Shown here: positions 38,083 through 57,964 of the stretch, one piece after another | Layout of the letters: each line of letters opens with the position of its first letter | How positions within the stretch are numbered: position 1 is the stretch's first letter | Assembly: GCA_006384855.1 (NCBI GenBank) | Contig: VCJN01002488.1 | Span: 62,001 to 126,000 of the forward strand | From: Tetraselmis striata | Lineage: Eukaryota > Chlorophyta > Chlorodendrophyceae > Chlorodendrales > Chlorodendraceae | Direction: 5' to 3' | Length of the DNA stretch: 64,000 nt | The notes under the pieces: model-generated | Databases searched by the model: none | Seen by the model: only the letters and a program-made list of their open reading frames with translations | Told to the model about the DNA's origin: nothing | Program-made: the position numbers and the translations under genes

Positions 38083-38430
38083 TAAGATCCATGTGGACAT
38101 GCGGTCCATGTGTACCCGTACATATGGAGCGGTCCGTGTGGACATGGAGCCTCCATTGACCCATGTCCACATGGCCCCGTACCATGTACACATGGAGCAA
38201 TCCGGGTCATATCCGTGTGGACATAGGCCGTCTGTCGCCGACGACAGACGGCCTATGTCCACATGGGTCGACCCGTGTTAGGACGGAACGTCTGTGGGCC
38301 GACCCATGTTCAAACATCTGTGGGCCGACCCATGTTCACATCTGTGGGCCGACAGACGGCCTATGTCCACATGGGTCGACCCGTGTTAGCACGGAACGTC
38401 TGCCGCGTCCCATGTTCAAATGGGCCGCGC
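38083..38430 (+). repeat. Left inverted palindrome array
   Basis: This holds many CCATGT/ACATGG half-sites, a perfect hairpin at 38216-38263 (22-bp arms, 4-base loop), and a roughly 50-bp direct repeat (38244-38293 and 38350-38401) containing GACAGACGGCCTATGTCC. The first 115 bp is the mirror of 42582-42696. Confidence 0.8.
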
Positions 38431-42419: not shown

Positions 42420-42695
42420 TTACCATATCACACATGGGCTGGATAGCGTGGATCCATGTGTAAATGGTCCAAGTACCGCGCTCCATGCGCACATGGGCCG
42501 GTCCGTGTGTGCATGGTCGTTTGTCGAGGGCAGTCCATGTGTACATGGGTCAGCCAACGACCCGTGTTCACATGGACCGTTTCCGGTTAACTCCATGTGT
42601 ACATGGTACGGGCCATGTGGACATGGATCAATGGAGGCTCCATGTTCACATGGACCGCTCCATGTACACATGGCCCGCATGTCCACATGGATCTT

Positions 42696-42696
<1 letters not shown>
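42420..42696 (-). repeat. Right inverted palindrome array
   Basis: An array of CCATGTGNACATGG-like palindromes at about 20-30 bp spacing. Its outer 115 bp is the reverse complement of the left array start. Confidence 0.8.

Positions 42697-42743
<47 letters not shown>
42697..42743. repeat. (TA)n microsatellite
   Basis: About 22 TA units directly outside the right palindrome array. Confidence 0.95.
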
Positions 42744-42861: not shown

Positions 42862-43037
42862 TGCGCGAGCCGGTTGAGGCGAGCGCAAAGCAGAGAGTGC
42901 CGGTGCCCGAGGGCGGATCCCTCAGGTCGTGGTGCTGGTGCGGGCCGGCAGGCCCCAGTCCGTGCGCCGACCGCGGGGATCGGGCGCAGTACAACATTGC
43001 TAAGTACTGTAAACCTCTAGATGACTACATCTGACCA
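42862..43037. repeat. 176-bp direct repeat, left copy
   Basis: Starts TGCGCGAGCC and ends ATCTGACCA. It pairs with 51985-52160. Confidence 0.9.
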
Positions 43038-43104
43038 TTTACCCAAGGAGGCACGATTTGCCAGAGAAGAAAGCCAAAGGCTTGCACAGGTAGCGAAGTG
43101 TAGC

Positions 43105-43626
43105 TGCGACAGTCTCGGGTGCCTCACGCAGGTCAAGCAGACAAGGCTGTCGTAAACACAAAGAAGGCAGCAGAGAGAGAAAGAAACAATGGTTACAACG
43201 TTGTCACCACCCGCCGCTATTTATGCGTATGGCTAGCTCACAGCTAGCCACCACCAAGCGGCACGCGCACTGCTAAGCGCGTCACCGTGAAGAGTCGTGC
43301 CTCGAAGTGTCGAACAGGAGGTCGTCGCTTAGAGACCTCCGCACATGTAGTTGACACATCAGTTTATACACAAGTATACAACTGATGTTCCAGAGGCAGG
43401 CACATTATACTTGTGCCCGCTACGGGTACGCACATGCGTATTATCCCGTAACTACTACTGAACAGTGTACCGGTACCAGTAGGACTCGTCTCATGATTCA
43501 TCATCCACCAGTACTCGTATTGTGGCGCGTGACACACGCGCGCACACATACGATACAGCAGGTACTCGTACATGAATGATGCTACGATCATACAGTACCC
43601 GTACAGAGTATGCCATTATTGTCACA
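43105..43626 (-). repeat. 3' LTR of the Ty3/gypsy element
   Basis: 522 bp, identical to 50146-50667. On the minus strand a TATA-like ATAAATA lies at 43218-43224. The LTR contains several short GTACTCGTA-type words. Confidence 0.95.
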
Positions 43627-43631
43627 CTACA

Positions 43632-43644
43632 TCTCTCCCCCCTT
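43632..43644 (-). other. Polypurine tract
   Basis: On the minus strand AAGGGGGGAGAGA lies five bases upstream of the 3' LTR, the expected place for the plus-strand primer. Confidence 0.8.
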
Positions 43645-43677
43645 GACAACAGTGTGAAATAGCATTCCACAGGCAGT

Positions 43678-46600
43678 TTAATTTGCAGTCGGCACACGTG
43701 CCGGGTATTTATGCATATGCTCCACAAATTCAGGTGACTTTACAAAGTCCAACCATTTGGGAGTAGCCATAAAATCCTGCAATGCTATTGTCCTTTTAAC
43801 ATCAAACAAACGATGCCAAACAGGGGCAATAGACTCATCCGCAAAGTGAACAAGAAATTGCAACTGAGTACCACGTAAACCGGGCATGGAACCGATCTTA
43901 ACGCTGGTAATCTTGTCAATCTCATACTCATCATCAGAGTCGTCACCGGTACCAACAACAAGAGGTACATGCGGGCGCAACGGCGCAGTGGGACAGGGTC
44001 TCAAGTTATTAACATGAAATACTGGGTGCAACTTAACACCAGCAGGTAATTTCAGTCGATAACTATGACCGCCAATTTTCTCTACAATAGAAAATGGGCC
44101 AAGCTGCTTGTCCATCAGCTTTTTGCAAGGCTGACCTTTGACCTTAAGCAGACGGGTATCCACAGATACTCTATCTCCAACATTGAAGATAGGAGGATTG
44201 CGCTGTTGCCTAACACTAGGACGAACAGTCAATTCATCTTTATGGACAGCCAACACTGACCGAACCAACTCGTGAATCTCCTTCATATCTTGGATACGTT
44301 GCTGAGCATCACGAGAGAATGCTATTGTTGGTCTCATACCAAACAATACATCCGGAGGCGTTTCAGGATTGAAACCATACATAACCTCAAATGGTGCATG
44401 CTCAATGCCAAGTGCTTTGTTGGAATTATACGCAAATTCCATCAATGGTAACTGGTCTACCCAGTTTGAACCATCGAAACAACAAAACGCACGAGCCAAC
44501 TCAGTGACTATGGCATTAATGCGTTCGGTCAAACCATCTGTTTCAGGATGTTGGCCACTAGACATGTTCAATTTAGTGCCAAGTCTCCGCCACAGAGTTT
44601 GCCAGAATGCAGACAGGAACCGTGGATCTCTATCAGAGACGATCACACGAGGTATTCCATGCAGCCTGAATACTTCCTTCAGAAATAATTCAGCTGCCTG
44701 TCCACCAGTCACGTTGACTGTGGTTGGAATAAAATGTGCTTGCCGGGACAGATGGCAACACACAACCAACATAGTATTATAACCATTACTCTCAGGTAAC
44801 TCGGTTATAAAATCCAAACCAACCGTATGCCATGGACGTGGCGGTACTGGTAAGGGCTGTGTTGGTGCAGGTGGCTGCGGACGTGCACGAACACGCCGGC
44901 ACACCGAACATTGTTCACAATAGGTTTTCACGTCATGTCGTATGCGTGTCCACCAAAAACGGTCCAAGGCACGTGCCAAGGTGCTTGCATAAGCACGGTG
45001 ACCAACAGAATCATGTAGCTCATACAATATCTTATTGATGATGTCACGATTGGTTGGTATGCAAAGACGTCCATGTCTCCAAAAATAACCATCGTGCTCT
45101 ACCACATGACCGGACTGCTTCCACCCCCCCCATAAGGAGTAGAACGCGTCCTCTGCATATCCAGCCTTAATAAGGTGGAGAATATTGTCATCAAGGCTAA
45201 GTGACGACGCACTTACAGCCGACAATACCGCAGTACATGGGCGATGTTCACTCACGAGTGATTCAGCCGCGTCCGGCACATCCCCGGTCCAATATAAGCC
45301 ACCGAAACCAATCGGCTTAAAATCCGGTCTACGCGACAACGGATCGGCTTCATTCCACTTGCCCTTTCGGTATGCAAGAGATATGGACCCAACAAACGGC
45401 TGCAAGTCGCGTACATAGCGCACTTGTCGCCGGTTCAACCTTTCTGCCGGTTGCCTGAGCAGATGACGCAGGGTGTCATGATCTGAGACAACAAGGAATC
45501 GACAGCACCCTTCAAGGTAACAACGCCAGTGCTTAATTGATTCACAGACAGCCAAAGCTTCCAAATCATAAGCACTGTAGGTATTACCACGCTCAGCTGC
45601 ATTCAGCTTTCGCGCCCAGTAACTCACTGGTTGAGGACCTCCTCCTTGGTCCTGCAGTAGTACTGCAGCAAGCCCTACGTTGGACGCATCTGTCGCTACG
45701 GTGAACGTCGCATCCGCCCCCATGGAAGGAATGGAAAGACACGGAGCGGAAATCAGTCGCAGACGAAGGGTCTCAAAGGCTTCCTGACACGCCGGTGACC
45801 AGTCAACATGAACTGGTTTAGACTTACGCAATAAGTCAGTCAATGGTGCAGTTAAATCACTGAAATGATGAATAAACTTAGAGTAGAAATTGCAGAATTG
45901 TACGAAACTTCTGACTTCACTCTGAGTTTTAGGGACAGGCCAATCCCTAACTGCAGCCACTTTGGCCTCTGAAACAGACAACTTACCATCAGCGACGGTA
46001 TACCCCAAATAATCCATAGATTGCATGCCAAAGAAACATTTCTTTAATTGCAACCTCAGATTATATTCATTCAGTTTCTCAAAAACTAAACGAAGGTGCT
46101 TTATGTGGTCATCATAATTATCTGAATATATACATATATCATCCAGATACACCACCACAAAGTCACGCAAAAATGGTCTCAAGATGTCATTCATCATGCG
46201 CTGGAAAGTGGCTGGGGCATTGCACAAACCAAATGGCATTGCAGTCCACTCCCATAGACCATCAGGTGTCTGAAACGCTGTCTTGTGGATGTCCTCCTCT
46301 GCAATGGCAACCTGCCAATAACCTGATGCTAAATCCAGATGGGTATAGCAACGGGCATTGCGGAGAGAATCCAACGTTTCATCAATTCGCGGCAAAGGAT
46401 ACATATCCTTTCGAGTGACCTCGTTCAGCCCACGAAAATCGACACACAACCGAAGGGATCCATCTGCCTTCTTAACAAAAAGAATAGGCGAACCAAACTC
46501 AGATTGACTAGGACGAACAAGTCCAGCGGCAATCGCATCTTTGAGTTGGCGATCCAATTCAGCACGTTCAGCGGGAGACAAACGATTAAGTCTTTGGCGT

Positions 46601-48186
46601 TTCATTTTGCCAGTTAACTCAATTTTGTGATCCCATGGCCGATGAACAGGCGGCCTGTTGACTGGACGCAAAATTTCAGGAAACTCGTCATACAACAAAT
46701 GACGAATAGAATCCTTTTGCTCTGGTGTCATAGCATTGTCTAAATGCAGGTCAGGATCATCCTTTATAACCGACATTTCAACGACATAGAATTCAGCCAA
46801 AGAATTATGCTTAGACGCACGAGCAGTTTTGCGCATCAACTTTTGTACCCTAGTGGAAGTAATCATGCTACATGCAGGAGTACGACCCACTATTACAACA
46901 GGTACATGGGTTCCATCCATTAGAGTCATGATACGTTCCGTACCATACTTAATGGTAACTTGCGCTTCATCAAGCCAAGTTAAACCCAATACAATGTCGG
47001 AGACTTTGAGCTCACGCAGTATATAAAATACTCGATTCTCAAATACATGTCCTCCAACAGACAGAGACACAACAGTTGTATGGCAACATGAGACACGTTG
47101 ACCATTAGCCAAACGGACAGGTGTTCTGGCTTTCAACTTTTGTATCTGCAAGTTGTTTCTGCGCACAAAGTCCTCAGATATAAAATCTAAAGATGCCGCA
47201 TTATCAACCAGTGCATCCACAACGGCGTCATCGTTAATTGTCACATTGACTTTCAACAATGGCCTGGGGTCATCCCAACGAGTCAAAGAAGCAATCTGAG
47301 GCAAACTTTGCCTTTGCATACTCCAAAATGATGGATCAGTCACATTGACAGCATCACACTCATTTATAGACTCAGATGCACGTTCACCAATACCAACGCT
47401 AGAATCTGCAACTTTTGCAGAGTCCACGTTAAAACTCACATTTGGACTTGTGACAGTTTTAGGTACAAAGTCATCAGGAAAATCACAGTTAGCATCAACT
47501 AACCAAATGTTAACCCCATACTTTGGCGGTCTAACATTTTCCTGGACTGTGGCATTTTTATCAGACCACCTGGTGAACAAAGGTGTCTTTGCCGGGTATT
47601 GCTGCAATAGTTTCCAATGCTTTGTCAAAGCACTGAATCTATCAAATGCAGGCAATACAAACACTCCTACAGTATGTTCTTTAGCCCTACTGCGGCATTG
47701 CTCAAAATGCCTCGCAATAGACTCAGTCATATGCCATGGAGGGTGAATAAACACACGTTCATTCGACAAGTCGCGCGATAATATCGAATCTTGTTCTGAA
47801 CAGAACGGCAAGTTTCGATGGGTATTCAGACCCTCATTATCCGCACAGCCCTCCAGCGTAAACTGGAACATCTCATGTAAGGGATCGAAGACTCTATCGA
47901 CCAGTCGCCACTCGGCACTGACTGCAGTCTGTCTAGGCATTCGACGCCTCAGAGCCTTTACGCGACGATGAGTCGAAACTTTCCGAGCACCCGTTACACA
48001 GGCTACTGGCAAAGTCGTACCAGACTCGCGTACACTATTCGAGTTCTCATCAGTAGGCGACTCAACATAGTCGTTACTACTCTCAGAGATGACGACATCG
48101 TCACTCGAACATGTACTCGTCACAGGTATATCGTCATTCAGACGTGCATTAGACAATAATGCGGATACCTCAGGTGCCAATGACAT
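43678..48186 (-). CDS. pol: Ty3/gypsy Pol polyprotein (PR-RT-RH-IN-chromo)
   Basis: 1502 residues from the first ATG; the frame is open upstream to a TAG at 48304-48306. Domains in order, by approximate residue: retropepsin near 327 with LVDNAASLDFIS, where the usual D-S/T-G is D-N-A; RT with VVYLDDICIYSD near 680; RNase H with FTVATDASNVG and the following catalytic Glu/Asp blocks; integrase HHCC (HDSVGH...CEQCSVC) near 1060; DDE core D (LDFITELP, 1126), D (SDRDPRFLSAFW, 1183), E (TDGLTERIN, 1222). Then come GPFSIVEKIGGHSYRLKLP (GPY/F module) and an aromatic tail at about 1420-1490 (QFLVHFADESIAPVWHRLF) resembling a chromodomain, which in chromoviruses guides integration to chromatin. It is made with Gag and processed in the particle. 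All residues needed for RT and IN are visible. Confidence 0.95.
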   Translation of the reverse strand: MSLAPEVSALLSNARLNDDIPVTSTCSSDDVVISESSNDYVESPTDENSNSVRESGTTLPVACVTGARKVSTHRRVKALRRRMPRQTAVSAEWRLVDRVFDPLHEMFQFTLEGCADNEGLNTHRNLPFCSEQDSILSRDLSNERVFIHPPWHMTESIARHFEQCRSRAKEHTVGVFVLPAFDRFSALTKHWKLLQQYPAKTPLFTRWSDKNATVQENVRPPKYGVNIWLVDANCDFPDDFVPKTVTSPNVSFNVDSAKVADSSVGIGERASESINECDAVNVTDPSFWSMQRQSLPQIASLTRWDDPRPLLKVNVTINDDAVVDALVDNAASLDFISEDFVRRNNLQIQKLKARTPVRLANGQRVSCCHTTVVSLSVGGHVFENRVFYILRELKVSDIVLGLTWLDEAQVTIKYGTERIMTLMDGTHVPVVIVGRTPACSMITSTRVQKLMRKTARASKHNSLAEFYVVEMSVIKDDPDLHLDNAMTPEQKDSIRHLLYDEFPEILRPVNRPPVHRPWDHKIELTGKMKRQRLNRLSPAERAELDRQLKDAIAAGLVRPSQSEFGSPILFVKKADGSLRLCVDFRGLNEVTRKDMYPLPRIDETLDSLRNARCYTHLDLASGYWQVAIAEEDIHKTAFQTPDGLWEWTAMPFGLCNAPATFQRMMNDILRPFLRDFVVVYLDDICIYSDNYDDHIKHLRLVFEKLNEYNLRLQLKKCFFGMQSMDYLGYTVADGKLSVSEAKVAAVRDWPVPKTQSEVRSFVQFCNFYSKFIHHFSDLTAPLTDLLRKSKPVHVDWSPACQEAFETLRLRLISAPCLSIPSMGADATFTVATDASNVGLAAVLLQDQGGGPQPVSYWARKLNAAERGNTYSAYDLEALAVCESIKHWRCYLEGCCRFLVVSDHDTLRHLLRQPAERLNRRQVRYVRDLQPFVGSISLAYRKGKWNEADPLSRRPDFKPIGFGGLYWTGDVPDAAESLVSEHRPCTAVLSAVSASSLSLDDNILHLIKAGYAEDAFYSLWGGWKQSGHVVEHDGYFWRHGRLCIPTNRDIINKILYELHDSVGHRAYASTLARALDRFWWTRIRHDVKTYCEQCSVCRRVRARPQPPAPTQPLPVPPRPWHTVGLDFITELPESNGYNTMLVVCCHLSRQAHFIPTTVNVTGGQAAELFLKEVFRLHGIPRVIVSDRDPRFLSAFWQTLWRRLGTKLNMSSGQHPETDGLTERINAIVTELARAFCCFDGSNWVDQLPLMEFAYNSNKALGIEHAPFEVMYGFNPETPPDVLFGMRPTIAFSRDAQQRIQDMKEIHELVRSVLAVHKDELTVRPSVRQQRNPPIFNVGDRVSVDTRLLKVKGQPCKKLMDKQLGPFSIVEKIGGHSYRLKLPAGVKLHPVFHVNNLRPCPTAPLRPHVPLVVGTGDDSDDEYEIDKITSVKIGSMPGLRGTQLQFLVHFADESIAPVWHRLFDVKRTIALQDFMATPKWLDFVKSPEFVEHMHKYPARVPTAN

Positions 48187-48326
48187 ATCGGCAACAGTAA
48201 CTTCGCAGTCATGCGACTCGACAGTTACTGGACAGCATGATGTAACACAAACATCACTTACATCCCTATCTACTGAGCTGTCAGCAGCAGAATAAGGGCA
48301 CCCCTATTTTATCTTAGGGCAGTCTT

Positions 48327-50066
48327 TCAGAAGGTGAGCCTCACATCACCACACTTAAAGCATGTTTTAGCAGCCAGATGCTTAGCATACTTCTCAGGCT
48401 CATGCATTTTGACATGATTAAGATAATCTACTATCTTTCTGCCAGGTGTGGTGGTGTTATTACCCTTCTGCTTTCCGTCGCTGGACTTCTGCCTTTTGCC
48501 GTTGTTGGTGTGGCGTCCATTGGCTGCGACAGGTGGAGCATCATCTCCACGGTTGCGCTTGCTCATGTTGGCAGCCTTGGACTTCTTCCTGGAGTCATGT
48601 CCTCCATTGCCATTGCCAGCAGGATGTCCATTGGCCACAGGCTTAGCCGCATTGCCAAGCGCCTTGTTGCTCCCAACCATCGCCGTTGTATACTGCTGTA
48701 GCTCAGCGAGTGTCGATGGTTGTCCAGCTCGCTTCTGGTCAGTCACAAACTTATGGGCAATCTCTTTAAGCTTATTGTGACTCAATGCAGATGCAAACTT
48801 AAGGACCATGAACTCATCAGGAAAGGTTAGTCTGGTCCTTGCTAGGACATCGTTGAAGGTCTGCACAAAGTCCTTATAATCCAACGGAGAGTCTTGGGGA
48901 CCAGCAGACACCTGCTTGATGCCATCAAGCTCTATGCATGCATCATGCACTATGTCATGCATCAATGGTGAGTCTCTAACTGCCTTCACAAACTCTGCAG
49001 CGTTGGTAGGACGCAGCGAAGGAGGCTTGGAATCAAATCCCTGCCACCAACGCTGGAACTTGCCACTCAGAGTCTGCACGGCATATGCAAGACCAGATGC
49101 AGTTGTGGACTTCAGTCCCACAGTGCCAAGCAGCTCCGGTAGTCCAGTCAGCCATACATCTAGCTTGAGGACATCCTGGCCATCTTGCTTGGGCTGGGTT
49201 TGAGCAGACTTCCTCTGGGACTCAGTTAGTTGTGCATCACGCGTCTCATACCATGGTATGTCAGTGATTGTTATATTGCTGAGGTCAGTTGCCATCGGAT
49301 CTACAACTAGATAACGATGCACAGCATGCCAGATAGGGGACTCACAAGAGTCATACCTAAATGCGAATTGTTGAGGAAGCTCAGGGTATGAACGGTTCAT
49401 CCAGAAACCATTCAACACAGACTTATAAATGGTTGCCCATGAATCACTTACCGCAGTATGAATCATGAACGGAGGGTACCACACAGTCGTCGGCACAGGC
49501 TTGCCTTGACTGTTCAATGCAATGCTCACGGAGTACGAATCCTCAGACTCCGGGTCTAGGGTGATACTCTCAGGGAAGGTGCGCGCGACGTCGGGTAATG
49601 CATCGCCGCCATCATCAGCATTTAGTTCTTCACCAGCTGCAGCCACCGGTGCTACTAAATGCGACATGACTAAGGCGTGCGATCTCTCTGGTGTGCGCAT
49701 CTCCTTCGCTATCTGCTTCGCCGATAGCTTAGATGCATATAAGAAACAACGCATGCCCTCGATGTTGAGAATGTCAAACAATTCTAAATCATCTTCATCG
49801 ACAAGCAAGCCAGTCTCTTCACGCAGTTTGCGCACCGCCGTGCCGCGCACAGACTTGTCAGACGCTATCGACTTTCCGACAGGTAAGAAAAGAGTCGATC
49901 TAGCGTTCGGTTCAGTCGTCAGAATCACTTGGCGTTCGACCGAGTGACCCTTACCGTAAGTCACCACCACGGCTGCACAAACCTTGGTAGTCGACAGGTC
50001 GACAGAACTTTCCTCGTTGAGCAGCAGCTCTCGGCTCTTGCCAGCAGAATTCATCGACTCGGACAT
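48327..50066 (-). CDS. gag: Gag with N-terminal Nudix-like domain
   Basis: About 579 residues from the first ATG after the LTR (MSESMNSAGK); an upstream in-frame ATG lies within the LTR. Residues about 24-115 resemble a Nudix hydrolase: a beta strand KVCAAVVVTYGKG, then LFLPVGKSIASDK and TAVRKLREETGLLV. The Nudix box (G-x5-E-x7-REUxEExGU) is slightly altered: Asp for the first Glu, one extra residue in the loop, and RK for RE. The metal-binding EE pair is intact. Residues about 290-480 form the Gag core (GKFQRWWQGFD, then VLARTRLTFPDEFMVLKFA). A basic Asn/Lys-rich stretch leads to the start of a zinc knuckle (CFKCGDV), where a TGA ends the frame. Gag builds the particle. A Nudix part could hydrolyse damaged nucleotides or caps; that function is inferred only. 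Confidence 0.8.
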   Translation of the reverse strand: MSESMNSAGKSRELLLNEESSVDLSTTKVCAAVVVTYGKGHSVERQVILTTEPNARSTLFLPVGKSIASDKSVRGTAVRKLREETGLLVDEDDLELFDILNIEGMRCFLYASKLSAKQIAKEMRTPERSHALVMSHLVAPVAAAGEELNADDGGDALPDVARTFPESITLDPESEDSYSVSIALNSQGKPVPTTVWYPPFMIHTAVSDSWATIYKSVLNGFWMNRSYPELPQQFAFRYDSCESPIWHAVHRYLVVDPMATDLSNITITDIPWYETRDAQLTESQRKSAQTQPKQDGQDVLKLDVWLTGLPELLGTVGLKSTTASGLAYAVQTLSGKFQRWWQGFDSKPPSLRPTNAAEFVKAVRDSPLMHDIVHDACIELDGIKQVSAGPQDSPLDYKDFVQTFNDVLARTRLTFPDEFMVLKFASALSHNKLKEIAHKFVTDQKRAGQPSTLAELQQYTTAMVGSNKALGNAAKPVANGHPAGNGNGGHDSRKKSKAANMSKRNRGDDAPPVAANGRHTNNGKRQKSSDGKQKGNNTTTPGRKIVDYLNHVKMHEPEKYAKHLAAKTCFKCGDVRLTF

Positions 50067-50127: not shown

Positions 50128-50145
50128 CAGTCGCTCCGAAACCAG
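50128..50145 (-). other. Primer-binding site
   Basis: One base after the 5' LTR the minus strand reads TGGTTTCGGAGCGACTG. TGG matches a tRNA CCA end, and the rest would pair with a tRNA 3' end of the form CGCTCCGAAACCA. It is near, but not identical to, the initiator-Met site TGGTATCAGAGC. Confidence 0.7.
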
Positions 50146-50667
50146 TGCGACAGTCTCGGGTGCCTCACGCAGGTCAAGCAGACAAGGCTGTCGTAAACAC
50201 AAAGAAGGCAGCAGAGAGAGAAAGAAACAATGGTTACAACGTTGTCACCACCCGCCGCTATTTATGCGTATGGCTAGCTCACAGCTAGCCACCACCAAGC
50301 GGCACGCGCACTGCTAAGCGCGTCACCGTGAAGAGTCGTGCCTCGAAGTGTCGAACAGGAGGTCGTCGCTTAGAGACCTCCGCACATGTAGTTGACACAT
50401 CAGTTTATACACAAGTATACAACTGATGTTCCAGAGGCAGGCACATTATACTTGTGCCCGCTACGGGTACGCACATGCGTATTATCCCGTAACTACTACT
50501 GAACAGTGTACCGGTACCAGTAGGACTCGTCTCATGATTCATCATCCACCAGTACTCGTATTGTGGCGCGTGACACACGCGCGCACACATACGATACAGC
50601 AGGTACTCGTACATGAATGATGCTACGATCATACAGTACCCGTACAGAGTATGCCATTATTGTCACA
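50146..50667 (-). repeat. 5' LTR of the Ty3/gypsy element
   Basis: 522 bp, identical by eye to 43105-43626. It is the promoter-bearing copy for the minus-strand transcript. Confidence 0.95.
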
Positions 50668-50689
50668 GTAGCGGCCGGACGGGGACGAG

Positions 50690-51955
50690 CTAGCAGCAGA
50701 ACCGCATCATAGCAGCTCGCTGTCGAGGCCGCGCCTTTGCGCAACCTGTGCGATGCCCACGTGACACTGGGGGGCGGCTGGGCGCCCGTCGCCAGGCAGG
50801 CGTCCCGCAGCCAGTCAGTGGGAGTGGCTGAAAAGGACCAAGCGGCGGAAGGCTCCAGCGGGGAGACGCTCCAAAACTTGGTCGGCAGGCCGGCGCCTCA
50901 GAGAGGGCGGCAAGAAGGCGGGGCTCGGCCGCCATCGACACCGTCCAGGGCGCTCCAGAGCCCGGGCGCGGGCGCCGTGCGCGGGACGGGCGGCCCAGGT
51001 ACTGTACATTGTACTGCAGTGACGGCCGTACCGCCAGGGATTGGCCGCAGGCCTTAGCATAACAGCGAAGATAAAGGTTGTCGTACGCTGCCAGACCCCG
51101 CTGCTCCGCGAGGCCGCGGGCGGCGGTGTCGTCGGTCAAAATCCACAAGCGAGGCTCGTCGCCGTCGCGTGGGGGTGGCTCCAGACCGGAAGGGGGGACT
51201 TGACCGCAGTAGGCGAAGCCGACGTACTCGAGCTCGGTGTCGAGTGCGTCCAGCTCAGCAGGAAGGGGCTCTTGCGCTCCTTGCTCACCACCCTCGGGCG
51301 CAGGCGCGCCCGCGGGAATGGCTGGCTGGGTGCCTTTGGGAGGAGGCGGTTGCACGGGAGGGGCCAGTCGAGCGAGTAAGGCGGCCGTAGCCGCCTCGAA
51401 CTGCTCGGCCAGCCGCTTCTCCAGGGCTATTGCTTGGGCCGTCAGGCGTTTTTCCAATTCGGTGTCGTCGTCGGTCAGAATCCACAAGCGAGGCTCGTCG
51501 CCGTCGCGTGGGGGTGGCTCCAGACCGGATGGGGGGACTTGACCGCAGTAGGCGAAGTCGACGTACTCGAGCTCGGTGTCGAGTGCGTCCAGCTCAGCAC
51601 GAAGGGGCTCTTGCGCTCCTTGCTCACCACCCTCGGGTGCAGGCGCGCCCGCGGGAACGGCTGGCTGGGTGCCCTTGGGAGCAGGCGATTGCACGGGAGG
51701 GGCCAGTCGAGCGAGTAAGGCGGCCGTAGCCGCCTCGAACTGCTCGGCCAGCCGCTTCTCCAGGGCTTCCGCTTGGGCCGTCAGGCGTTTCTCCAATTCC
51801 GCGATGGATGCCGCAGTGGCGCCGCCCGGGGCGTCGTCGACTAGGGCGTCTTCCGGTACAGGACGAGGGGGCATCCTGCTGTCGCGGGGTGGGGAAGGTG
51901 TAGCGTCTCGGGAGGCTGAGGCTCGGGTCCGAGTCGGCATAGAGTAAGCTGACAC
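50690..51955 (-). CDS. Gag-like coiled-coil ORF with an internal tandem duplication
   Basis: 421 residues from an ATG at 51955. A 113-residue unit is present twice in tandem (DNA 51131-51469 and 51470-51808, period 339 bp). Each unit has a heptad-like helix (ELEKRLTAQAEALEKRLAEQ), a Pro/Gly-rich spacer and a segment with YCGQVPPSGLEPPPRDGDEP. After the repeats comes a short conserved-looking stretch with YDNLYLRCYAKACGQ. I know no close family. The coiled coil followed by a compact domain, and the place just inside a 176-bp terminal repeat, suggest a structural Gag-like protein of a non-autonomous element. The nested Ty3 insertion begins 22 bp past its stop. Confidence 0.55.
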   Translation of the reverse strand: MSAYSMPTRTRASASRDATPSPPRDSRMPPRPVPEDALVDDAPGGATAASIAELEKRLTAQAEALEKRLAEQFEAATAALLARLAPPVQSPAPKGTQPAVPAGAPAPEGGEQGAQEPLRAELDALDTELEYVDFAYCGQVPPSGLEPPPRDGDEPRLWILTDDDTELEKRLTAQAIALEKRLAEQFEAATAALLARLAPPVQPPPPKGTQPAIPAGAPAPEGGEQGAQEPLPAELDALDTELEYVGFAYCGQVPPSGLEPPPRDGDEPRLWILTDDTAARGLAEQRGLAAYDNLYLRCYAKACGQSLAVRPSLQYNVQYLGRPSRARRPRPGSGAPWTVSMAAEPRLLAALSEAPACRPSFGASPRWSLPPLGPFQPLPLTGCGTPAWRRAPSRPPVSRGHRTGCAKARPRQRAAMMRFCC

Positions 51956-51984
51956 TCTGCTCGACTGCTAGAGTCGAGACTGCT

Positions 51985-52257
<273 letters not shown>

Positions 52258-53797: not shown

Positions 53798-54241
53798 TCG
53801 AAAAGCCGCTAGATCGGACGTACGAGGCGGATATACTCAAGACCGTCCTAGGGCGTGCCACCGTAAATTTCAAATAATTTCGATTTTTTACTACTATATA
53901 CTGATTAATTGTATAGTAGCGGCTCCGCGGCTTTGGAAAAAGGAGGCTGGGCCGTTAATACGGTTACGGTTCATGGATTCGCATATAAAAGTAAAGGAAA
54001 GTAAAGTTCGCCCCGGGACATCGGCCGAAGCCGCCCCGGCACTTCACCTCGTATTCTTATTCTGATTCTTGGATTCGCATGTACTTATATATTGGAAGTT
54101 CGTATAAAGATGTCGTATATATTTCGTATTCCGCATTTCGTACTCCGATAGCTAGTGTGCGGCCGAGAGAAGTTGCCGGTTGCCAGTGAAAAAATGCGTG
54201 GTCTCTCTGTACCCGTACCATAGTACCTGTAACGCGATATG
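53798..54241 (+). repeat. Outer repeat X1
   Basis: 444 bp, identical by eye to 57521-57964. Ends in ATG, the joint with the inner element. Confidence 0.95.
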
Positions 54242-54425
54242 ATCTAAACTAGTTTATGGGGTTTCCATCCTTGACCTAACCGCTTTTCAGCTACAAGTGC
54301 TGCGCAGTGGTACGGGAACTAGTAACTGTTGTTGCGCCCTTGTTGGGTGCAGCACGAGTAGACATAAAAGCAGCCAGAACAGCTGAGCCTGCCATCTTCC
54401 AGTTTTCGCTGCGTTCCACGCAGCG
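54242..54425 (+). repeat. Inner repeat A1
   Basis: 184 bp, identical by eye to 57158-57341. It probably includes the promoter of the element's coding region. Confidence 0.95.
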
Positions 54426-54538
54426 ATGTAAAAACTGTCTCGTAACCCGTTGCGAGCAAGGTCACCCCAGGTTGTTCAAGACCACACCCGGCTCGCCACC
54501 CGAGTGTGATATTCTCGTCCGTACGTCCGTGCGTTACT

Positions 54539-55414
54539 ATGTCAGATGGAGAAGAACCCGTCGCTGAGCCGACGCTGCAGTCGCTGAACGCAGATATGAG
54601 GGCCCAGTCTTCATTACTGCGAGAGTTGGCTACAGCTGTGGCACAATTGACGGCTCGTGATCGCGTTGTTGATGGAGAAGGGGCACATGGCTCCGGCTCA
54701 GGGCAGCGCTTCGCGAGACAGCCGACAGGCAGCGGGGGAGCCGCAGAGCGCCCCGACTTGCTAGAGCTAGCCCAGAGCGGCCGTGTCGGAGCAAAATCCG
54801 TGAGTGCCGAGGATGATTACCTCGCGGTGCCAGAGCTACTGCAGAGAGCAGAGTCTGGTTACGAGGCCGTTCGACCGGTCAGCCGAGTGCCTGGACTTTT
54901 CCCTTTGAGCACCGACCTAACGAACGAGTACCTCAAGCAGGATGACCGGCGTCTGCCGGCCCAGGAGGAGTACTTGTGGATGTCGTGTTTCGGGGCCCAC
55001 ATGGCCGCCCTTTTCGTGGCGCTCGACGAGCTACTGCCCTACGTCCCTTCCAGCAACCAGGACTTCACCCCCTACCTCGCGAGAGCCCGGAACCACGCCG
55101 AGGCCATCGACAAGGCGTTTCGGTTTCGTTTGGCCTTCCTACGGAAGCTCAATGAGATCAAGCGTGTGCACGGTGACCAAGGTGTTCTGGATGTGCTGCG
55201 AGCTCAGCATTTTCAGCCTGCTTCGGAGCACCTGGGTTCCGCGATCTTTGGGGACCTCATGCGGGACTACGAGCGTCGTGTTTTCGAGGCGACCGTTGCC
55301 AGCAGCGCCAAGGCGACCGCTACTTCTCGAGTGGCGGCTGCAGCTGCAGGTCGCGGGCGTGGGCGAGGACGTGGCGGGGGACGTGGACGTGGCCGCGAAG
55401 GTGAGCACGAGTGA
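54539..55414 (+). CDS. Gag-like ORF1 of the inner YR element
   Basis: 291 residues from the ATG at 54539 (MSDGEEPVAEP); the frame opens 33 bases earlier. The N-terminal part is a short predicted coil (LNADMRAQSSLLRELATA). The middle is a helical domain (YLWMSCFGAHMAALFVAL, then RFRLAFLRKLNEIKRVHG). The C-terminus is a basic RGRGRGRGGGRGRGR tail suited to RNA binding. This matches the general make-up of Gag-like ORF1 proteins of DIRS-order elements. Its stop is TGA followed by CGG, and the next ORF lies in the same frame, so a readthrough fusion is possible. Confidence 0.7.
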   Translation: MSDGEEPVAEPTLQSLNADMRAQSSLLRELATAVAQLTARDRVVDGEGAHGSGSGQRFARQPTGSGGAAERPDLLELAQSGRVGAKSVSAEDDYLAVPELLQRAESGYEAVRPVSRVPGLFPLSTDLTNEYLKQDDRRLPAQEEYLWMSCFGAHMAALFVALDELLPYVPSSNQDFTPYLARARNHAEAIDKAFRFRLAFLRKLNEIKRVHGDQGVLDVLRAQHFQPASEHLGSAIFGDLMRDYERRVFEATVASSAKATATSRVAAAAAGRGRGRGRGGGRGRGREGEHE

Positions 55415-57076
55415 CGGTGTGGGGCGCCGTTCGTCGGAGCTGCAGGAGCCTTGCGAGGCCACCTTTCGGTGACCGCCGCAAGGCGCACCCTTGCAGCTCA
55501 ACGACGGGATGAGCGCCCTGTGTCAGGACCTGACCCCCCCACCTTACAGACTTCATTTAGACCTTCCTCGGTGCGGCGCTTCTTACAGCTACAGCCGAGT
55601 GCGGCTCAACCATCCGCACACCTGCACATGGCGGCTCAACCATCCGCCTTTCTTACAACCCCATCTCTGCGTTCGTCGGTTGTTACACTACGAGTTACAA
55701 CCGGTTCGCAACGACCAAGTTTCGCGCGTGTACGTTACGCACGGGACAGGCGCTATGAGCGCGAAGGGCGCGCGGGGCGGCCCTCCTACCTGAACCTAGC
55801 CCCGCAAACCCGTACTGGAGCTACTGCAAACCCGTCCAGCAACTACCGGCCAACCGCCGGGAACCTAACCGCTGCTGCCGAGTACTTTGCGAACAGTAGC
55901 CGTCCCGGTGGCACTCTGTCAGTAAAACGCCGCACTTACGTAATCGACGAGCCCGCAGCTATCGCTCCGTGGGCTGCGTCACTGCGATCCCGACTACAGG
56001 ACGCGTTCGGCTCAGACGAGCTAGGCCAGCGGACGCTCGACCTGCTCTCCAGCTCCCTCAGCGCTCAGACCCTCAAGAGCTACGCCGGCAGGTTGGCTCA
56101 GTTCGCTGAGTTCTGCCACGACTCCGAGAACATCAGCCCGCTAGAGGCGACTACTGCTACTGTTGTTCGGTACGTTGCCTGGATCGGGGAGCGAGGGCAT
56201 ATCGCAGCTAAGTCGCTGCAGCCCTATCTGTCTGCCATCAACACCTTCTTCGAGCTGCACAACCTCGTCCCGATCGCCAAGGACAGCCTACACCTCACTT
56301 CGGCAAGACGTGGGTTAATGTTACGTCAGCGTCGACTGGACGCTGCCCCTTTGCGTGTCCCTCTGCCTGCGGATGTAGCTTACCGCTTCGTCTCAAAGGC
56401 CGAGCTAATTGTGTCTGCTCCTTACCCAGAGTCCCACCTCGACTACCGAGCCCTCTTGGCCTCGGTTGTCAACTTCCTGTTCTTTGCCAGGGGCCTTACT
56501 GGCGTCTCCTGTCGAGTGCAAGATGTGCATGTCGACACCTACAACATCACCTTGCAGATCTACCGCGAGAAGGGTCGCGCCGGCCGGCGGGGACCTGACG
56601 ACCTGCGCGTACTTCTCCTTCCAGTGTCCGAGCACCCTCGAGTGGCACGTCTCTTGCGCTACTTCATCGACAACGTCCAGTCTGTCCCCCTGGTTACTGT
56701 TGGCTTGGCTACCTCCAACTTCTGGGCTGTCAATGTGGCTGAGCAGTCGAAACCTTGGACTGCTACTACGATGTCAGACTGGTTGTCTACAGCAGTCAAC
56801 CTAGTCAACGCTGCCCCCCCTGCTGGCACTTCCTGGACTTCACACAGTCTACGCAAGGGCGCAGCCTCTGCAGCAAACGCCATTGGAGCGCCACTGTCCC
56901 ACATCCGCTACCAGGGCGGTTGGGCCACTAACTCTGATGTCGTTCTGGACTACATCGACCCCAACGTTCTTCCTTCTCCTGGCGCATGGTTCTTCTTTGG
57001 ACACATCGCCCCTCTCCGCCACTTCCAAGTCCAACAGGACTCCGCAGCGGTGGCCTTCCCAGTGCCTCCTTCATGA
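55415..57076 (+). CDS. Tyrosine recombinase (site-specific integrase)
   Basis: Open from the codon after the ORF1 TGA to the TGA at 57074-57076, in the same frame as ORF1. The first internal ATG is at 55628 (MAAQPSAFL), giving 482 residues if made alone. The N-terminal SAM-like core-binding region is at TLKSYAGRLAQFAEFCHD. The catalytic domain shows Arg in FARGLTGVSC, HSLRKGAAS (H-x-x-R), a Trp/His-position block YQGGWATNSDV, and the nucleophile Tyr in VLDYIDPN. These are the residues of phage-integrase-type recombinases of DIRS, Ngaro and Crypton elements. It should integrate a circular DNA form at short matching cores. It lies directly before B1. Confidence 0.9.
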   Translation, partial: RCGAPFVGAAGALRGHLSVTAARRTLAAQRRDERPVSGPDPPTLQTSFRPSSVRRFLQLQPSAAQPSAHLHMAAQPSAFLTTPSLRSSVVTLRVTTGSQRPSFARVRYARDRRYEREGRAGRPSYLNLAPQTRTGATANPSSNYRPTAGNLTAAAEYFANSSRPGGTLSVKRRTYVIDEPAAIAPWAASLRSRLQDAFGSDELGQRTLDLLSSSLSAQTLKSYAGRLAQFAEFCHDSENISPLEATTATVVRYVAWIGERGHIAAKSLQPYLSAINTFFELHNLVPIAKDSLHLTSARRGLMLRQRRLDAAPLRVPLPADVAYRFVSKAELIVSAPYPESHLDYRALLASVVNFLFFARGLTGVSCRVQDVHVDTYNITLQIYREKGRAGRRGPDDLRVLLLPVSEHPRVARLLRYFIDNVQSVPLVTVGLATSNFWAVNVAEQSKPWTATTMSDWLSTAVNLVNAAPPAGTSWTSHSLRKGAASAANAIGAPLSHIRYQGGWATNSDVVLDYIDPNVLPSPGAWFFFGHIAPLRHFQVQQDSAAVAFPVPPS

Positions 57077-57129
57077 CTTGGCGCTACCCCTTCTCCGTCA
57101 ATCCACCGCTCTCTCCGTTCGCTCAAGAC

Positions 57130-57157
57130 TGGCAAAACCAGACTCAACTTTGAAATG
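57130..57157 (+). repeat. Inner repeat B1
   Basis: 28 bp ending TTTGAAATG, directly joined to A2. Repeated at 57435-57462. Confidence 0.9.
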
Positions 57158-57341
57158 ATCTAAACTAGTTTATGGGGTTTCCATCCTTGACCTAACCGCT
57201 TTTCAGCTACAAGTGCTGCGCAGTGGTACGGGAACTAGTAACTGTTGTTGCGCCCTTGTTGGGTGCAGCACGAGTAGACATAAAAGCAGCCAGAACAGCT
57301 GAGCCTGCCATCTTCCAGTTTTCGCTGCGTTCCACGCAGCG
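57158..57341 (+). repeat. Inner repeat A2
   Basis: 184 bp copy of A1. Followed by 93 bp unique to the right end, then B2. Confidence 0.95.
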
Positions 57342-57434
57342 CCCCCCCTGACTCCGTTTTCCCTCCACGCTTTTCGCTAAACCTTCCTGCCAATTTCGGC
57401 TCTTGACCGTGTAAAACAGCCTGCGCGACCTTTT

Positions 57435-57462
57435 TGGCAAAACCAGACTCAACTTTGAAATG
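57435..57462 (+). repeat. Inner repeat B2
   Basis: 28 bp identical to B1. Its last bases ATG form the right joint of the inner element. Confidence 0.9.
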
Positions 57463-57520
57463 TGTCCATACACTGCCCGCACCTACACCCGCTGTCCAGT
57501 AGTCGCTACTGGTACGATTG
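57463..57520 (+). repeat. Outer repeat Y1
   Basis: 58 bp starting TGTCCATACACTGCCC, identical to 57965-58022. Confidence 0.95.
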
Positions 57521-57964
57521 TCGAAAAGCCGCTAGATCGGACGTACGAGGCGGATATACTCAAGACCGTCCTAGGGCGTGCCACCGTAAATTTCAAATAA
57601 TTTCGATTTTTTACTACTATATACTGATTAATTGTATAGTAGCGGCTCCGCGGCTTTGGAAAAAGGAGGCTGGGCCGTTAATACGGTTACGGTTCATGGA
57701 TTCGCATATAAAAGTAAAGGAAAGTAAAGTTCGCCCCGGGACATCGGCCGAAGCCGCCCCGGCACTTCACCTCGTATTCTTATTCTGATTCTTGGATTCG
57801 CATGTACTTATATATTGGAAGTTCGTATAAAGATGTCGTATATATTTCGTATTCCGCATTTCGTACTCCGATAGCTAGTGTGCGGCCGAGAGAAGTTGCC
57901 GGTTGCCAGTGAAAAAATGCGTGGTCTCTCTGTACCCGTACCATAGTACCTGTAACGCGATATG
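57521..57964 (+). repeat. Outer repeat X2
   Basis: 444 bp copy of X1, contiguous with Y1 on the left and Y2 on the right. Confidence 0.95.

Follow-up and report, generated by a model that had tools for sequence, protein, structure and literature searches.

A Nudix-like domain in the Gag of a Ty3-type retrotransposon family of Tetraselmis striata, with a homologue in the Pol of a second family

Here we describe a Ty3-type LTR retrotransposon family of Tetraselmis striata, family A, whose Gag is headed by a Nudix-like domain (residues ~24-134), an assignment confirmed by profile and pairwise sequence comparisons, and a second Ty3 family, B, which carries a homologous domain in Pol. We propose that the domain is a putative RNA 5'-end or nucleotide phosphate-binding module, a reading that we favour over a nucleotide-cleaning enzyme and regard as about evenly poised between right and wrong. 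LTR elements are known to acquire dUTPases, esterases and exonucleases; as part of the particle proteins, a Nudix domain would add a new type to these accessory modules.

The family A element was found in a stretch of 64,000 nucleotides of contig VCJN01002488.1 (the window). It lies on the minus strand, is complete, with an LTR pair, a GTAGC duplication, Gag and Pol (Table 1), and is a recent Ty3-type insertion. The LTRs had been described as identical in the initial annotation, and they match at 522 of 522 bp, with TG..CA ends and GTAGC on both flanks. Family A shows the features of Ty3/gypsy elements (Metaviridae), namely LTRs, a short target duplication, Gag, and a Pol with the order PR-RT-RH-INT, in which the integrase H2C2 domain scored above its Pfam cut-off and rve under it (15.9 bits; cut-off 32.6). 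Residues 146-579 of Gag gave no Pfam match, and so no recognisable capsid profile; we identify the protein as Gag from its position ahead of Pol and from the CX2CX4HX4C zinc knuckle present in other family A copies (L130, L176 and L178). The window copy deviates from the others at this knuckle, in the last part of its Gag (48327-48400), and most full-length matches stop at residue 577.

Table 1. Coordinates of the family A element and its parts in the window
Feature	Position	Strand	Basis or remark
5' LTR	50146..50667	-	522 bp identical to 43105-43626; TG..CA ends
3' LTR	43105..43626	-	522 bp identical to 50146-50667
Target-site duplication GTAGC (5 bp), 5' LTR side	50668..50672	.	Flanking letters
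Target-site duplication GTAGC (5 bp), 3' LTR side	43100..43104	.	Flanking letters
Putative primer-binding site TGGTTTCGGAGCGACTG	50128..50144	-	One base past the 5' LTR
Purine-rich tract	43627..43646	-	Adjoins the 3' LTR
Gag ORF, 579 aa	48327..50066	-	Nudix-like N-terminus, CA-like region, basic/zinc-knuckle end
Nudix-like domain, Gag residues ~24-134	49665..49997	-	Pfam, fold prediction and fold search, homologous Pol domain
Nudix box, Gag residues 64-87, G-x5-D-x8-RKLREETGL	49806..49877	-	ORF translation
K80 codon, site of the first Glu in REUxEE	49827-49829	-	Nudix box alignment
Pol ORF, 1541 aa: Dam-like, protease, RT, RNase H, integrase, SH3-like end	43678..48303	-	Pfam; Dam-like through family B homology
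Dam-like region, Pol residues 150-287	47443..47856	-	blastp E=2e-8 to L174 Pol (family B)

Outside its LTRs the element is bracketed by a 180-bp direct repeat (99%; 42862-43041 and 51985-52164), with a 425-aa ORF between (50693-51967), and the stretch 50906-50703, which overlaps this ORF, resembles a recombinase-like ORF (55415-57076) at 45% over 69 aa. The Ty3 element thus seems to be nested inside another element. The recombinase-like ORF lies with a second ORF (54446-55414) in the region 53798-57820, between split direct repeats (53798-54097/57521-57820 and 54236-54425/57152-57341), and we take this region to be a putative tyrosine-recombinase-like element, its split repeats being arranged as in PAT/DIRS elements. 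At 837-2355 there is a decayed Ty3 pol fragment of a further lineage, kin to many copies, some of them in 1525-1534-aa frames; its flank (L237) holds no Pol start. Stretches rich in short repeats, CCATGTGTACATGG-like and related, occur at 42500-42700 and 38242-38402.

The initial annotation had placed a Nudix-like domain at 49709-49997 (Gag residues 24-119), fused to the N-terminus of a Ty3 Gag, and this holds, because PF00293 passes its cut-off on the domain scanned alone and family B has a homologous domain. The three deviations that it had read in the Nudix box are also there: Asp for the first Glu (G64-x5-D70), a loop of x8 instead of x7, and R79-K80 for R-E, after which E83 E84 T G L follow. 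The strict pattern GX5EX7REUXEEXGU is therefore matched neither by family A (Asp for Glu, x8, Lys for Glu) nor by family B, in which Arg takes the last of these sites and the second Glu of the pair is gone. The profile search that the annotation had proposed as a check came out in its favour, in that residues 20-145 alone match PF00293 with 22.7 bits (E=1.1e-4; cut-off 21.1); in the whole 579-aa Gag this is the sole Pfam match, at 19.1 bits (E=0.0013) and under the same cut-off. For comparison, L002, a true Nudix protein found on a viral contig, reaches 21.3 bits with PF00293, so the family A domain falls within the range of divergent Nudix members; two further Nudix proteins reach 43.3 (L121) and 47.1 bits (L104). 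Among five proteins that bear the motif without a recognisable Nudix context, four (L045, L111, L120 and L006) gave no NUDIX match and one (L052) scored 16.5 bits. Matches in NCBIfam and PHROGs were of Nudix type and weak (E 0.027 and 0.019), and a sequence search of the PDB found no relative, the sole match being PTS EIIAB at E 0.6. A fold model of the domain matches Nudix structures in a fold search, many of them decapping and Ap4A enzymes; the alignment behind the model consisted of Nudix proteins, so that the fold is partly imposed, and it says nothing about activity.

We considered whether the likeness could be due to chance, with an amphipathic helix that happens to carry REETG and no true Nudix domain around it. 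A home-made profile of 59 Nudix proteins, which favours the motif because the proteins were gathered by it, gave the family A domain 32.5 bits, and none of 5000 shuffles exceeded 8.8. When the 11-residue motif was held fixed and the rest shuffled, 2 of 2000 sequences reached the real score (32.0), and when the motif was masked the score fell to a non-significant -0.3; both motif and context therefore contribute, the motif more. The loss of signal on masking is in keeping with chance, as are the sub-threshold Pfam score of the whole Gag, the three viral-contig proteins with an RK motif and no NUDIX match, and the score of the whole Gag with the home-made profile (28.9 bits), which is closer to the values of seven controls bearing the motif (9.8-21.4) than to those of nine genuine Nudix proteins (48.8-82.5). 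The domain scanned alone nevertheless clears the Pfam cut-off, and the second family weighs more heavily still.

Family B, of which the initial annotation makes no mention, emerged from a PF00293 search of the genome (224 Mb, 2903 contigs), which has 48 matches to the chlorophyll a/b-binding family at E <= 1e-10, as befits a photosynthetic eukaryote. Among the 149 places listed, 105 (counted by eye) start at profile position 8 and score 27.1-35.1 bits, often in a 1539-aa frame, and all 13 copies read from these 105 belong to one Ty3 family. The copy read through Pol (L174) has a Dam-like region, NUDIX, protease, RT, RNase H, integrase and a chromo-like end that is under its cut-off; the Nudix domain, with the box PEGKRGDTDATPETTAVRRLLEQTGY, sits between the Dam-like region and the protease. 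PF00293 scores this Pol at 26.5 bits, above the cut-off, and two more copies at 29.8 and 34.2 bits, although family B does not share the REETG letters. Pairwise alignment shows the two domains to be homologous, with a blastp match between the Nudix parts of Gag A and Pol B (E=2e-6, 32% over 84 aa) and a phmmer score of 24.2 that none of 3000 motif-kept shuffles of A attains (maximum 13.5). The family A domain scores 23.4 and 29.2 bits with two B copies and 20.3 with the best of the 59 collected Nudix domains, and none of the 22 Nudix matches that we took as host genes is among its best 14 matches. This homology is the strongest evidence for the Nudix identity of the domain. Family B largely refutes the chance explanation, which we now consider very improbable.

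The Gag of family B, read in two copies, is an ordinary 393-aa ORF without a Nudix domain; Pfam finds Ty3_capsid in one of them (34.3 bits) and CCHC under its cut-off. Two further families, C and D, were read in one copy each and have the Dam-like region and protease in Pol, with no Nudix domain within the 475 and 472 codons read. An unrooted tree of the four sequences, built on the Dam-like region and the protease, unites C and D (100% ultrafast bootstrap) and does not resolve A and B as sisters. Nor do A and B stand out as a pair by identity in these two regions, with 26% and 23%, compared with 29% and 27% for A and C and 30% and 27% for B and C. A single acquisition of the Nudix domain in A plus B is thus no more than possible. 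We infer for the domain itself a common origin in A and B and a transfer between ORFs. The Dam-like region ahead of the protease is common to all four Ty3 families (window 47443-47856; L174 Pol residues 57-154; L238; L239). On L174, PF05869 (Dam, DNA N-6-adenine methyltransferase) scores 23.7 bits, under its cut-off of 28.1, and the Dam-like motif site reads HPPW in A, NAPY in B, HPPY in C and NPVY in D.

In the REUxEE motif the Glu residues bind metal (excerpted text of PMC6913127). At the first of them family A has K80 in 75 of 75 rows, which correspond to 65 distinct places (ten rows being repeat fetches); the relatives of the element thus keep the Nudix box, as the initial annotation had expected of a genuine domain. 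R79 is likewise present in 75 of 75 rows, and E83 and E84 in 74 of 74. Family B has Arg at the first Glu site in 13 of 13 copies read, and its second Glu of the pair is replaced by Gln, Lys or Arg. A search of viral contigs with a pattern that accepted Lys or Glu equally returned at least 120 stretches; among those listed, 117 have Glu, most but not all of them in Nudix proteins, and three have Lys (L045, L111 and L120), none with a NUDIX match; one of these three is a ParB, one an RNA replicase and one an unassigned protein. The prokaryote genome collection contains a single instance of the exact RK form, a clear Nudix protein of a Kaiserbacteria MAG (L121:2372-2824) that is otherwise a good match and offers a natural test of Lys at this site. 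Few Nudix proteins thus have a basic residue in place of the first REUxEE Glu; in the copies read of A and B it is fixed. One Nudix match of the T. striata genome, L217, reads RRRLDEELG, with Arg at this site; we take it to be an IPP isomerase.

The nucleotide-cleaning or decapping activity suggested in the initial annotation is not supported, since 'RK for RE' hits a metal-binding Glu, with Lys in all family A copies read and Arg in family B, and ordinary Nudix hydrolysis appears to have been lost in both. Binding rather than cleaving, which it had offered as an alternative, fits the residue pattern better. The pocket seems to have kept its shape and its constraint while a positive charge took the place of a catalytic acid, which would suit it to holding phosphate, and it is for this reason that we propose a binding module. 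As part of Gag (A) or Gag-Pol (B), the domain would be carried into the particle; its location would allow particle entry either way. There the former substrate pocket of the fold would hold a nucleotide, or the element's own RNA by its 5' phosphates or cap region, and such binding could help to select, protect or position the genomic RNA. In its way of working the proposed module would be akin to CFIm25 and to MERS1, a protein of mitochondrial 5' mRNA processing in Trypanosoma brucei; MERS1 has Thr254 where the first REUxEE acid would stand, retains both Glu of the pair and binds single-stranded RNA (PMC6913127, excerpted text). Our weighting of the binding, enzymatic and structural readings follows from the state of these residues together with the homology of A and B.

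One alternative is an active but unusual Nudix hydrolase (for dNTP cleaning, decapping or 5'-pyrophosphate removal) whose missing acid is supplied from elsewhere. The invariance of E83 and E84 in the copies read points in this direction, and an invariant Glu pair in family A would be odd if metal were irrelevant, which counts against a binding-only reading. Many of the fold matches, moreover, are decapping and Ap4A enzymes, although the fold is silent on activity. MERS1 offers a precedent, since a partner, proposed to be MERS2, may make it active by contributing a Glu (PMC6913127); because MERS1 may be such an enzyme, one missing Glu does not prove that catalysis is absent. The residue at this site in both of our families is, however, Lys or Arg and not a neutral one, and family B has lost the second Glu of the pair as well, so we judge a hydrolase unlikely.

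Alternatively, the domain could serve Gag structurally, as a matrix-like head or an assembly interface that descends from the Nudix fold and needs no ligand. Retroviral matrix domains occupy the Gag N-terminus, just as this domain heads Gag in family A. In family B, by contrast, the homologue lies in Pol upstream of the protease, while the Gag has an ordinary Ty3 capsid and no Nudix domain, and this Pol location makes a purely lattice-related role less likely. The invariance of R79, K80, E83 and E84 suggests more than a surface, although helix packing could explain it. We rate the structural reading as improbable as the hydrolase, and retain a binding module as the preferred one.

Gag A matches 78 places in the genome and the domain alone at least 151. 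In 12 divergent copies compared with the window copy, omega was 0.09-0.17 in the Nudix part and as low in the linker (0.08-0.16, with 0.33 in L213); the CA-like region gave 0.10-0.16 in the 11 copies that cover 150 codons or more of it, and 0.26 in L137 (50 codons). These are rough estimates: each comparison involves the window copy, synonymous divergence is large (dS 0.67 to 1.53), and stops interrupt 10 of the 12 copies. They still indicate that selection has maintained the family A domain about as tightly as the capsid-like region. In a set of 29 distinct, nearly identical full-length Gags, pN/pS was 1.05 in the Nudix part, 1.05 in the linker and 0.56 in the CA-like region, based on very few differences (in the Nudix part, 0.6 synonymous ones per pair). 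We read the ratio of about 1 in these young copies as recent post-insertion change, which lends no support to constraint.

Many further copies of family A, likewise absent from the initial annotation, seem to lack the capsid part and to have a stand-alone Nudix ORF. Among the domain matches listed (151 reported), 55 (counted by eye) end at domain residue 108-111, in open frames of 128-217 aa, most of which measure 155 aa or about 205-212 aa. We read 22 of these 55 (L175-L178 and L195-L212). The four read at length (L175-L178) have the LTR (97-98% identical) and the 5' Nudix part; where the capsid part would lie they carry sequence that is mostly unrelated, and the Gag end or the Pol start follows. 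L178/L180 also retains Pol, as two overlapping frames. In the other 18, read around the Nudix ORF only, similarity to Gag stops at residue 127 or 134. Such copies would yield a free Nudix protein of ~147 aa. Their pooled pN/pS of 0.21 looks at first glance like strong constraint, and all 22 are free of stops, a biased count because they were chosen from stop-free matches (1 of the 55 listed has a stop). In the alignment, however, the copies look like mosaics of two full-length lineages, and the changes absent from all full-length copies (18 non-synonymous, 9 synonymous) give a ratio of 0.66 (P=0.37 against neutrality). We therefore do not take the pooled ratio as evidence of independent selection on the stand-alone ORF.

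A broader scenario, in which an algal Ty3 lineage captured a Nudix domain, made it a reader of RNA 5' ends, shifted it between Gag and Pol and spawned capsid-less elements whose free protein acts on their own RNA, strikes us as rather doubtful when taken as a whole. The putative module would provide a way into the question of how LTR elements recognise or protect the 5' ends of their own RNA. With a basic residue for the first REUxEE Glu in two families and strong constraint in family A, the idea that a Nudix fold was turned over to binding can be put to the test. The initial annotation knew of no described Nudix-Gag family, and we found none in the literature that joins Nudix with retroelements, judged by titles and abstract starts; with subscription journals mostly outside the coverage, this is weak evidence that the fusion is new. 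The word Nudix is absent from the main text of a paper on Ectocarpus transposons (term search; PMC12477816). Viral contigs searched with Gag, the Nudix domain, Pol and RT held no relatives, nor did the phage collection.

Compared with the Nudix superfamily (PF00293), the domain shares the predicted order of strands and helices, the G-x5-acid, the R-x-L-x-E-E-x-G helix and the Pfam match; it differs in having Asp for the first Glu, an extra loop residue and Lys (A) or Arg (B) in REUxEE, and in being fused to Gag or placed within Pol. CFIm25/NUDT21 and NrtR are Nudix folds used for binding. Both are among the fold matches of the family A model, and CFIm25 resembles the proposed manner of working; they are cellular proteins, not parts of mobile elements, and the likeness seen here is one of fold. 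IPP isomerase is a Nudix-fold isomerase with an active site of its own; L217, which we take for this enzyme, has Arg at the same site as family B. IPP isomerase differs in its activity and does not rank with the top matches to the element domain. MERS1, as far as the excerpted text goes, has in common with our domain the R-x-L-x-E-E-T-G motif, the missing first acid of REUxEE and, as in family A, the kept Glu pair; it has Thr instead of Lys and is a mitochondrial host protein that acts with MERS2, and the likeness seen here is one of motif and proposed manner of working. TR-GAG elements, known here by title in PMC12477816, are non-autonomous plant LTR elements that retain a Gag domain, and compared by title only they differ from our capsid-less copies, which retain the Nudix ORF and drop the capsid part. 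LTR elements of bdelloid rotifers carry dUTPase, GDSL esterase and DEDDy exonuclease modules, the latter two as ORF3s (PMC5408684, excerpted text). None of these is Nudix, but like the domain described here they are accessory domains captured by LTR elements and common to different retroelement types.
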